DNA of 64,000 nt from Armatimonadota bacterium (GTDB lineage: Bacteria; Armatimonadota; Fimbriimonadia; Fimbriimonadales; GBS-DC), in NCBI GenBank assembly GCA_013359125.1, contig JABWCR010000003.1:124001-188000 (forward strand), read 5' to 3'. This document shows positions 387-28,961 of the stretch, piece by piece; the first letter of the stretch is position 1; every line of letters begins with the position of its first letter. The position numbers were made by a program, and so were the translations under genes. The notes beneath the pieces were generated by a model. It made no database searches and was not told where the DNA came from. It saw nothing but the letters and a program-made list of their open reading frames with translations.

Positions 387-2006
387 ATGGCTGCAAAGGA
401 CATTCTGTATAACGAAAGGGCGCGGCACGCCCTGGAGCGCGGCGTGGACACCATTGCCAACGCCGTCAAGGTCACATTGGGCCCCCGAGGCCGAAACGTC
501 GTGCTGGAGAAGAAGTGGGGCAGCCCGACCGTCATCAACGACGGCGTAACCATTGCCAAAGAGATCGAGTTGGAAGACCGATTCGAGAACATGGGCGCCC
601 AGTTGGTGCGCGAAGTCGCGAGCAAGACCAACGACGTAGCCGGCGACGGCACCACTACGGCGACCGTGTTGGCTCAGGCGATCTTTCGAGAAGGTCTGAA
701 GGCCGTCGCGTCCGGCGCCAATCCGATCCAGGTTAAGCGCGGCATCGACAAGGCCGTGGAGGCCGTCGTCGAGCACATTAAGGGCGTGGCCGTGCCCGTA
801 GAGGGCAAGGACGCCGTTCTGCAAGTGGCGACCATTTCGGCGAACGATCCTTCGATCGGCGAGAAAGTGGCCGAGGCGATCGACCGAGTTACCAAGGATG
901 GCGTCATCACGGTTGAAGAGAGCAAGGGCACCCAGACCGAGCTGGAAGTGGTCGAGGGTATGCGATTTGACCGCGGCTACATCTCGCCCTACTTCATTAC
1001 CGACGCCGAGCGAATGGAAGCCGTACTGGAAGATCCGCTGATCCTACTGTACGAGAAGAAGATCAGCTCTGCCCAAGACCTTCTGCCCGTTCTGGAGCAG
1101 GTCGTGAAGTCGGGCCGACCGATGGTCATTATCGCCGAAGATGTAGAGGGCGAAGCCCTGGCCACTTTGGTCGTCAATAAGCTTCGAGGCATCGCCCACA
1201 CCGCCGCCGTCAAGGCGCCCGGATTTGGCGACCGCCGAAAGGCCATGATGGAGGACATCGCGATCCTGACCGGCGGCACCTTCATCACCGAAGATCTGGG
1301 ATACAAACTGGAGAACGTTCAGCTGAACCAGCTGGGCAGCGCCAGCCGCGTGATCCTGGAGAAGGAGAACGCCACCATCGTTGGCGGCAAGGGCGAAAAG
1401 AGCGCGATCGACGGGCGCGTGGCCCAGATCAAGAAACAGATCGAGACCACCGAGAGCGACTACGACCGCGAGAAGCTTCAGGAGCGACTGGCCAAGCTGA
1501 GCGGCGGCGTGGCCGTGATCAAGGTGGGTGCGGCGACCGAGACCGAGATGAAGGAAAAGAAGTCTCGATACGACGACGCGATCCATGCGACAAAGGCCGC
1601 AGTCGAAGAGGGCATCGTGGCTGGAGGCGGCGCCACCCTGGTGAGTGCGATCAAGGCGCTGGACAGCGTGAGCCTGGAAGGCGATTCCAAGATAGGCGCC
1701 AACATCGTGCGCCGCGCTCTGGAGGAGCCCCTTCGACAGATCGCCCATAACGCGGGCGTCGAGGGCAGCGTGATTGTGGAGAAGGTGAAGACCCTGCCCG
1801 CTGGCCAAGGCTACAACGCCGTAACCGGCGAGTTTGTCGATATGGTGAAGGCGGGCATCGTGGACCCGGCCAAGGTTACGCGATCGGCTCTGGAGAACGC
1901 CGGTTCGATCGCCGGGATGCTGCTGACCACCGAAGCTCTGGTGGCCGAGCTTCCCGAGACCGACAAACCCGCTATGCCGACCCCCCCCGGCGGCGGAATG
2001 TACTAA
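387..2006 (+). CDS. groEL: chaperonin GroEL
   Basis: 539 residues, close to the usual 540-548. This is the ATP-driven folding chamber that works with GroES. The N-terminal ATP site is intact (GPRGRNVV near residue 30, [12 protein letters not shown] near residue 86), as is the C-terminal nucleotide motif [13 protein letters not shown]. It ends PPGGGMY, a short version of the Gly/Met-rich tail. AAGGAGG at 371-377 precedes the ATG. A hairpin terminator follows at 2024-2055. The long open frames on the opposite strand are shadows of this codon usage. Confidence 0.98.
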
Positions 2007-2095: not shown

Positions 2096-2183
2096 CGCCG
2101 CACTCGCGGGTGTGGCGCCGTGCCGCGCGAACGGGAATCTCCAACTTTGTAGCACAATTCTGGGTACGAATCGCACCCCAGAA
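2096..2183 (-). repeat. Dispersed structured 3' element, copy A
   Basis: Read on the minus strand, this starts 5 bases after the TAG stop of the dockerin gene. It has a 7-bp hairpin with a 12-base loop ending GATTCGTA (2183-2158), then TTGTGCTACA, nine variable bases and ATTCCCGTTCG (to 2128). A GC-rich hairpin follows (2117-2096, arms CGCCACAC and GTGCGGCG). Positions 2183-2128 match 28603-28658 at 45 of 56 bases without gaps. No known RNA family recognised. Confidence 0.75.
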
Positions 2184-2188
2184 CAACG

Positions 2189-3532
2189 CTAACATCCGCT
2201 GCCGAACGAGACCAGAACGATGGCCAAGTCGGTGTCGTCCACCACGCCGTCGCCCGTAACATCCTCGGGGCATCCCGTGCAGAAACTGCCAAACGACGAC
2301 AGGACGCGAGCCAGATCGGTATCGTCCACGCATCCGTCCCTATTCACGTCGGCGCGCGGGTCGGCGGCCGTGCGCTGTACATTGCCGACGTTGTCGCGCG
2401 CAAAGACATAGAAAAGATAGAAGTTGCCCGGCGAGCCATTGAAGACCGCGCTTGTCTGGGTCGTCTGCTCCAACCAAACTTCATAGGGCGCGCCGTTCTC
2501 CGACACCAAGATCGTAAAGTCCTTCACGCCCGAGCCGTCGTCCTGGCCGGCCCAGTTCAACTCGATCGGCTGGTCGCCCAGTCCATGCCTCGGCGAAATT
2601 TGGCTGGTCGGAGGCGTCAAGTCAAGAGCGTTGATCCAAGTATTCGTTACAATCGTCTGTTCGCCATCGAACGTGATCGCGGCTTGATTCGCGTAGCTTG
2701 TAAGATGAGCGGGGTTCGCCCGCGGCTGTACCGAGAACGAAATGCGTCCTTCTCCGCGGCCATCTCTATCGACGTTGGGCGGCAAGAATCCGGCCAGGGG
2801 CGCAGTCGGCGGATTGTTGGTCAACGGATCGATGGTCCTAAAGAGCGTATGTAGCGTCCTCGAGCCGAAGTCGAGGCGAACCTCAATATCGACTACGAGG
2901 TTCGCATTATCCGGTACGATGTCGCCATTGGTAAGAGGCACTCGGACATAGCCGCCCTGCGTGCCGACAAGGTCGGTAACCAGCTGATTTCCAAACGCGA
3001 TGTCGCCCATCTCAAAGGTCGAAAGGTCCAGATCGGGATCCAGCACATCGGTAATTCGGACTTCCTGCGCCGGAGCGGTCGCTGCAGGCAAGTTCTCAAA
3101 AAACACTGCGTAGGTCATGGTCCTTGGCGCAGGCAGCCATCCTTGGGCGCTAAATCCGATAGGACCGACCTTTTCGTTCGGATCGATCGCAACGACGATC
3201 GTGCTTTCGCCTCCTTGATTATCCTCGCCGCCTGTATTGCCTCCGGCGCCTCCTCCTCCTCCGCCGCCTTTGCTGCCGCCTGCTCCGCCGCCGCCCGCAA
3301 TGGAGCCTTGAGAGCCGATCGACGGCGACATGCTGAGCAACGGGCCTAGCGAATAACTGGATCTGCTGTCGAATAGACTTGTTTCGTCTGAACTTGCAAG
3401 GCCGGTCGGTTCGACGCCTGACGTTTCAGCTCGCTCTCCGACTGGCTCTCTTGAGTCGGCGCGAAATCCATGTTGCGGCAAGATGGCCGAAACCAGGACA
3501 AGACCCAAAAGACCGAGGCAGGCTCGTTTCAT
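2189..3532 (-). CDS. Secreted protein with C-terminal dockerin-like tag
   Basis: 447 residues with an N-terminal signal peptide (about 1-25). Next comes a low-complexity region with a Gly-rich stretch near 80-105. A domain beginning DPNEKVGPIGF (about 115-300) has the pattern FENLPAATAPAQ...ITDVLDPDLD seen in many bacterial surface proteins. An Ig-like segment (about 305-390, DGSGVKDFTILVSENG) follows. The last 55 residues hold two calcium-binding repeats, DVNRDGCVDDTDLARVLSSFG and DVTGDGVVDDTDLAIVLVSFG. Similar tags end the proteins at 33428 and 51002. The function is unknown; a surface or extracellular role is inferred. It lies 26 bases downstream of the broken gene at 3559-4735. Confidence 0.85.
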   Translation of the reverse strand: MKRACLGLLGLVLVSAILPQHGFRADSREPVGERAETSGVEPTGLASSDETSLFDSRSSYSLGPLLSMSPSIGSQGSIAGGGGAGGSKGGGGGGGAGGNTGGEDNQGGESTIVVAIDPNEKVGPIGFSAQGWLPAPRTMTYAVFFENLPAATAPAQEVRITDVLDPDLDLSTFEMGDIAFGNQLVTDLVGTQGGYVRVPLTNGDIVPDNANLVVDIEVRLDFGSRTLHTLFRTIDPLTNNPPTAPLAGFLPPNVDRDGRGEGRISFSVQPRANPAHLTSYANQAAITFDGEQTIVTNTWINALDLTPPTSQISPRHGLGDQPIELNWAGQDDGSGVKDFTILVSENGAPYEVWLEQTTQTSAVFNGSPGNFYLFYVFARDNVGNVQRTAADPRADVNRDGCVDDTDLARVLSSFGSFCTGCPEDVTGDGVVDDTDLAIVLVSFGSGC

Positions 3533-26673: not shown

Positions 26674-28602
<1,929 letters not shown>

Positions 28603-28720
28603 TTTTGGGGCGAGATTCGTACTCAAAATTGTGCTACATTCGCGAAGATTCCCGTTCGGCTTGCAACGTCAGAACTTCGACTGGTAGAACCCGCCGCACC
28701 TGCGCGGGGTTGGCGGGATC
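28603..28720 (+). repeat. Dispersed structured 3' element, copy B
   Basis: Begins at the base after the proS stop. The stem TTTTGGG (28603-28609) pairs with CTCAAAA (28622-28628) around a 12-base loop ending GATTCGTA. Then come TTGTGCTACA, nine variable bases and ATTCCCGTTCG (to 28658). A GC-rich hairpin (arms CCCGCC and GGCGGG) follows within the next 60 bases. The 56-base block 28603-28658 matches copy A (2183-2128, minus) at 45 positions without gaps, and the stem differences keep pairing. Confidence 0.75.
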
Positions 28721-28775: not shown

Positions 28776-28961
28776 CTATGTGCCTTGCGCGTCTTGCTCT
28801 CTCAGGTCGGGCTCGTACTCCCATTCGCCATCCCTGTACTCGTACTCCCAGTGCTCGTTCGGGTTCTCAGAGACATCCTCCTCCCAGCGCTCGTTCGGGT
28901 TCTCAGAGACATCCTCGAACTCGTATCGTCGAGTAGGATCTATCATGGTTACCACCCCCAC
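28776..28961 (-). CDS. Small acidic protein with tandem 12-residue repeats
   Basis: 61 residues. Two 12-residue repeats, EDVSENPNERWE and EDVSENPNEHWE (residues 16-39), are followed by a Tyr/Trp/Glu-rich stretch (YEYRDGEWEYE). TAGAAT (28973-28968) ends 6 bases before the GTG at 28961, so it has the same leaderless layout as well-supported genes nearby. There is no signal peptide or membrane segment. It is probably disordered and strongly acidic. Function unknown; protein binding is a guess. Confidence 0.55.
   Translation of the reverse strand: MGVVTMIDPTRRYEFEDVSENPNERWEEDVSENPNEHWEYEYRDGEWEYEPDLREQDAQGT
28845..28916. repeat. Tandem 36-base repeat inside the small acidic gene
   Basis: Two direct copies, 28845-28880 and 28881-28916, are identical at 35 of 36 bases (T/C at the seventh base). 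The period of 36 keeps the reading frame. Such near-identity suggests a recent duplication. Confidence 0.85.

Follow-up and report, generated by a model that had tools for sequence, protein, structure and literature searches.

A lineage-specific family of about 120 short, probably mobile repeats with a nearly invariant decamer in an Armatimonadota genome

Pattern and profile searches show that a short block located just past a stop codon, in the 64,000-nucleotide stretch of DNA analysed here (the window), is one of about 120 copies of a repeat family dispersed in its genome. The element is probably a lineage-specific, non-autonomous and very short mobile repeat which is recognised by a putative protein. 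It is not a structured RNA. Two traits are unusual: a non-palindromic 45-bp unit that mostly stands alone and a nearly invariant decamer inside it. The window holds two copies (A and B), with the following features:

2128 to 2172, minus strand: 45-bp unit of copy A, sequence GATTCGTACCCAGAATTGTGCTACAAAGTTGGAGATTCCCGTTCG (profile match over model positions 1-45)
2148 to 2157, minus strand: invariant decamer TTGTGCTACA of copy A (core constraint)
2176 to 2179, minus strand: GGGG, 4-7 bp beyond the 5' end of copy A (position-specific G bias; preferred target feature, outside the unit)
2189 to 3532, minus strand: gene upstream of copy A, encoding a secreted-type protein that matches DUF7619 and, marginally, dockerin (Pfam)
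387 to 2006, plus strand: gene 3' of copy A and convergent with it, Cpn60/TCP-1 family chaperonin of 539 aa (Pfam)
28614 to 28658, plus strand: 45-bp unit of copy B, sequence GATTCGTACTCAAAATTGTGCTACATTCGCGAAGATTCCCGTTCG, single (profile match)
28629 to 28638, plus strand: invariant decamer TTGTGCTACA of copy B (core constraint)
28607 to 28610, plus strand: GGGG, 4-7 bp beyond the 5' end of copy B (G bias of the family)
26692 to 28602, plus strand: gene upstream of copy B, prolyl-tRNA synthetase (Pfam)

The original prediction, made from the letters of the window, described copy A as a 56-base block at 2183-2128 (minus strand), 5 bases past the TAG of the open reading frame at 2189-3532, and this placement is correct. 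The ungapped identity of 45 out of 56 bases to copy B (28603-28658, plus strand) could be reproduced as well. The motif common to both, TTGTGCTACA-N9-ATTCCCGTTCG, has two matches in the window against 0.00 expected from shuffled window sequence. The block is indeed a repeat, but its extent had been drawn too wide: only 45 bp are conserved and the 5' stem arm lies outside. Similarly, the gene before copy A had been called a dockerin gene; DUF7619 is found there, with a dockerin match that is only marginal. Copy A is single, since a partner or repetitive DNA was sought on both of its sides and none was found. Ten of the 273 proteins encoded next to copies are members of a single family, to which the secreted protein that precedes copy A is related (L003, L025, L031, L037, L038, L043, L113, L118, L124), a recurrence that may reflect the size of this family in the genome alone. 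The 56-base block of copy B abuts the TGA of the prolyl-tRNA synthetase frame, and the 45-bp unit begins 11 bp past that stop. Best relatives of the synthetase are found in Chthonomonadales, in other Armatimonadetes MAGs and in Chloroflexi, which makes Armatimonadota the probable phylum of the host. A little past copy B, two tandem 36-bp units (TCGTACTCCCAGTGCTCGTTCGGGTTCTCAGAGACA) occupy window positions 28840-28911.

Further copies had been expected elsewhere in the genome (2.82 Mb, 47 contigs), and they are numerous. With at most three mismatches, TTGTGCTACA-N9-ATTCCCGTTCG gives 97 matches genome-wide against 0 for a reversed control, while a 5'-anchored pattern gives 127 against 6; counts vary from 97 to 127 according to the pattern used (controls: 0 to 7). 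A profile built from 100 copies recovers 117 distinct copies in stretches taken around copies, and four further divergent ones were recognised among extra occurrences of the decamer. Whole units are only about 75% identical to one another. Information content is high solely from GATTCG (-15) to CCCGTTCG (+29), which makes up the 45 bp (consensus GATTCGTACTCAAAATTGTGCTACATTTTGAAAAAATCCCGTTCG). Outside the unit, enrichment is limited to an upstream G-run, with G in 58, 77 and 70% of copies at -6, -5 and -4 from the 5' end.

The flanks were compared in 356 pairs of close copies, having a mean identity of 93% over the 45 bp and unrelated 5' flanks. In these pairs only 24-29% identity is left at positions -3 to -1, and roughly 26-39% over the 30 bases 3' of the unit. 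With the exception of the G-run, flanks on both sides are at near-random identity (about 24-35%). This collapse shows that the unit ends sharply at either side. The joint frequency of G at -6 to -4 in close copies approximates the product of the single frequencies, as for independent draws, which indicates that the G-run belongs to the target and not to the element.

Units also occur in a second form. Among neighbouring copies at most 600 bp apart in the profile set, 16 of 21 pairs are convergent, five are tandem and none is divergent; a 17th convergent pair was seen on C7, beyond this set. Convergent pairs bound elements of 115-375 bp (117-374 bp for the 16 of the profile set), in which the 45-bp unit acts as terminal inverted repeat (TIR) and the interior is variable and palindromic (REP-like). 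No convergent pair spaced 0.6-6 kb, as would be expected around a transposase-encoding parent, exists among the copies found, in an assembly of 47 contigs where copies cluster at contig ends. Target-site duplications were absent from the 16 convergent pairs examined; in MITEs these may vanish in old copies (PMC10969869). The C33 and C44 pairs represent one two-ended element, with both ends present at two loci of unrelated flanks, and C1:120159 and C11:38551 hold its left part only. Of the options initially offered for the block, it is the small mobile repeat that gains support from the roughly 120 dispersed copies, their unrelated flanks and the two-ended element found intact at two loci.

At least 51 mid-contig units are single. 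A search for hidden partners of 51 such units revealed none, save one weak score within a gene. Singles are not more decayed than paired units (mean identity 75.8% versus 75.3%, p = 0.58). Near contig ends, 25 of 26 singles face the end with their 3' side, because palindromic repeats lie inside. In all groups, repetitive DNA is on average more frequent in the 3' flank than in the 5' flank, although many singles have unique DNA on both sides.

Many elements are filled by the palindrome GGCGAGCGTCCCCGCGAGCC, present in 153 copies here and in 42 copies in G002, a genome of the same family but another genus. In G002 it lies inside a clear MITE, which is about 260 bp long and has other ends (AGAGACTGTTTAAGAA...TTTTTAAACAGTCTCT). 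This supports the view that MITE-like elements have the 45-bp unit as their end repeat. Using the MITE definition from PMC10969869, convergent terminal inverted repeats within a total of less than 500 bp are seen in 16 pairs, whereas most units are single. Like the prokaryotic MITEs Correia/NEMIS, RUP and ERIC, the elements are short (<500 bp), non-coding, dispersed and intergenic, with inverted terminal repeats and an interior common to different loci. Differences are that the 45-bp TIR occurs mostly alone, that neither a target duplication nor a parent transposon was found and that the interior is variable and rich in palindromes.

The family is lineage-restricted. No copy was obtained by a pattern search of 60 relatives, nor by a profile search of 113 genomes of the order and 291 of the phylum, the relatives in which the original prediction had anticipated further copies. 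Exact-pattern searches of IMG/VR and of about 85,000 species genomes (where records closest to this genome may be absent) also returned no copy, and neither did plasmids and phages.

Genes around the copies were called with a simple codon-based caller. All but two of 107 profile matches are intergenic, the two exceptions being the lowest-scoring ones. Of about 100 copies with a called left neighbour, slightly more than half share its strand and about 43 do not, of which 16 sit between divergent genes. Copies are therefore not tied to gene 3' ends: they adjoin starts as well as ends of genes, and on either strand. About twelve long open frames, mostly real genes, stop on a codon formed at the unit junction (T/GA, T/AA or TA/G, with the slash at the junction), and three frames extend four codons inside the unit, ending in IRT and a stop. 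Clearly genuine genes are among the frames ended by the unit, for example XerD, PsuG and a Vsr-like gene. PsuG here has the tail SIRT before its stop, and relatives carry other short tails at the same place. Both the junction stops and the PsuG tail fit insertion at gene ends. No recurring mobility gene was found beside the unit among the 273 neighbour proteins.

The decamer within the unit is nearly invariant. To remove ascertainment, the middle of the unit was masked and copies were sought by the flanks on either side of it, yielding 94 matches (against one in the control) of which 93 are true copies. In these 93 copies TTGTGCTACA shows a single substitution over 930 positions, against 5.4% at the flank positions, where mismatches are capped by the search itself (p = 7e-17). 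Genome-wide there are 143 exact decamers, and some free ones are expected by chance alone. Of 19 examined outside the original copy set, four are the divergent copies, and the other 15 lack any similarity in their flanks and appear chance-like. Taken with the near-invariance in copies, this points to a constrained recognition site and not to an independent signal of the uptake-sequence type. The constraint could stem from recognition for movement or from use by the host.

Host use would imply that a protein of the lineage (a nucleoid organiser or a regulator) occupies the 45-bp site and that host selection keeps the decamer. The almost perfect retention of the decamer against about 75% overall identity, the intergenic location and a G-run contact at fixed spacing all agree with this. 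Nevertheless, we consider a host-selected site unlikely: the unit is absent from all other family and phylum genomes searched, common descent of related copies extends over the unit and not into their flanks, the two-ended unit has been duplicated entire, and the unit alters gene ends.

Another candidate reading is that the genome's own Y1 (RAYT/TIRYT) transposases move the unit as a REP-like or TIR family. A whole-genome search with PF01797 detects four Y1-transposase-like genes. One lacks the HUH histidines, two are RAYT-like and intact, and the fourth is RAYT-like but broken. Furthermore, published TIR families of TIRYT genes comprise singles, dimers and clusters (PMC3733652), and the flanking G-run could pair with an internal CTC. 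However, none of the four genes has a 45-bp unit nearby, and the RAYT-like genes adjoin other palindromes (CCGGCGGGGACGCCGGCGGTACTT, CCCTCCACACCTGCGGGTGTGGAGGG, GCGCCGGCTTGCCGGCGC), for which reason RAYT/Y1 was dropped as the obvious partner. The unit also lacks a conserved hairpin, and a terminal GTAG or CGTC tag was not found: GTAG is seen only midway along the reverse strand (TGTAGCACAA), some 20 bases short of the end. Movement of the unit by these Y1 enzymes is thus quite improbable. As to other enzymes, the genome has only two tyrosine recombinases, both Xer-type, and these were rejected as partner; one of them has its end at a copy. A parent element could be hidden in collapsed repeats at contig ends.

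REPs and REPINs associated with RAYT reach about 100 copies per genome, occur as singles and as inverted doublets of one polarity, are extragenic and lineage-specific, and have singles that are more decayed than doublets (PMC3116915). Our family resembles them in copy number, in singles plus one-polarity doublets, in extragenic location and in lineage specificity. It differs by having no palindrome and by singles that are conserved as well as doublets, and the RAYT-like genes of this genome are flanked by other repeats. The TIR families of TIRYT genes are moderate-sized sets of non-REP terminal repeats in single, dimeric or grouped units (Di Nocera et al. 2013, PMC3733652). Here too the family is moderate-sized with units single or grouped, yet no tyrosine transposase gene is flanked by the unit. 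Because the RAYT-like transposases of the genome have their own hairpin repeats, the family is not a REP, nor is it proven to be a TIRYT family.

These hairpin repeats accompany RAYT-like genes at C17:2500-7500 (CCGGCGGGGACGCCGGCGGTACTT), on C28 (CCCTCCACACC..GGTGTGGAGGG) and at C21:33500-37500 (GCCGGCTTGCCGGC); the gene on C28 is disrupted by frame changes. The Y1-like protein without HUH histidines (C18:22825-23160) is apparently fused to a helix-turn-helix tail resembling sigma region 4. Its gene is flanked by a PyrB-like gene and a vitamin-K epoxide reductase/DsbA-like gene, and the protein may be domesticated.

For the mobile repeat that we favour, the observations suggest the following course. 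A sharp-ended unit of 45 bp would insert 3 bp downstream of a G-rich trinucleotide (the G-run at -6 to -4), into intergenic DNA or the last codons of genes, and would leave no detectable target-site duplication. It is found both singly and in convergent inverted pairs that end MITE-like elements. A sequence-specific DNA-binding transposase or recombinase is presumed to recognise the unit through the decamer TTGTGCTACA, probably aided by ATTCGTACTC and CCCGTTC. Single units may be either independently moved units or leftovers of pairs. There is a modest chance that this amounts to a class of mobile DNA in its own right, with a non-palindromic minimal unit of 45 bp, a putative enzyme acting at an invariant decamer, no target duplication and an adjoining G-run, or else that the same units have been co-opted as a lineage-specific, genome-wide protein-binding system. 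The family may also resemble the very small cyanobacterial repeats SDR, reportedly described by Elhai et al. in 2008 as mobile units of tens of bases that often lie beside palindromic repeats.

The original prediction described the block as a structured element, and here the larger family gives a different picture. The stems TTCTGGG/CCCAGAA and TTTTGGG/CTCAAAA can be drawn in copies A and B, but they are not kept: among 94 copies (93 distinct sequences) standard pairs make up 48.1% against 47.4% in shuffles. RNAalifold predicts 0 pairs on the 94 sequences. The compensatory change read from the two copies likewise fails across the family, with no covariation excess over shuffles, and is a coincidence, because the upstream stem arm is flanking DNA. 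Other foldings were also tried and rejected. The stem TTYTGGG/CYCARAA pairs no better than shuffles in either of two registers (the second shifted by one), and the same holds for an internal hairpin (TCAAAA/TTTTGA plus GATT/AATC) and for pairing of flank GGG with CCC. Copies A and B do lie directly past stop codons on the same strand, and the slight majority of left neighbours on the same strand would suit a 3' UTR regulator or a terminator-like RNA element. Given stem pairing at the shuffled level, no Rfam match in the window and about 43 of some 100 left neighbours transcribed oppositely (including the 16 copies between divergent genes), this reading is highly improbable and the supposed rule that copies always follow stop codons on the same strand breaks down. 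A small RNA with its own promoter fares no better: where the right-hand gene is known, it shares the strand of the copy in less than half of the cases.

DNA uptake sequences (Neisseria DUS, Haemophilus USS) have an invariant core of about 10 bp and form inverted pairs at gene ends. An uptake signal accumulating via biased transformation would share with our family the invariant 10-mer core, inverted pairs close to gene ends and lineage restriction, and dprA is present in the window, but it is hardly credible here since the core is scarce beyond the 45-bp context (the 15 out-of-set decamers without flank similarity and the four divergent copies), copy number is far lower and the flanks of the core are kept by descent over 45 bp.

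With these results the poorly studied phylum Armatimonadota gains a well-defined repeat family, with about 120 short and dispersed members. They also teach that a persuasive compensatory change between two copies can arise by chance. Should a transposase or binding protein recognise the decamer, the contrast between invariant core and variable surround offers a handle for finding that protein. In addition, the family marks the start points of many intergenic palindrome islands in the genome. The palindrome GGCGAGCGTCCCCGCGAGCC itself also forms tandem arrays with periods of 33 or 38 bp (C13:66837-67160, C30:257-507 and C8:91396-91605), two of the three being located at contig ends.
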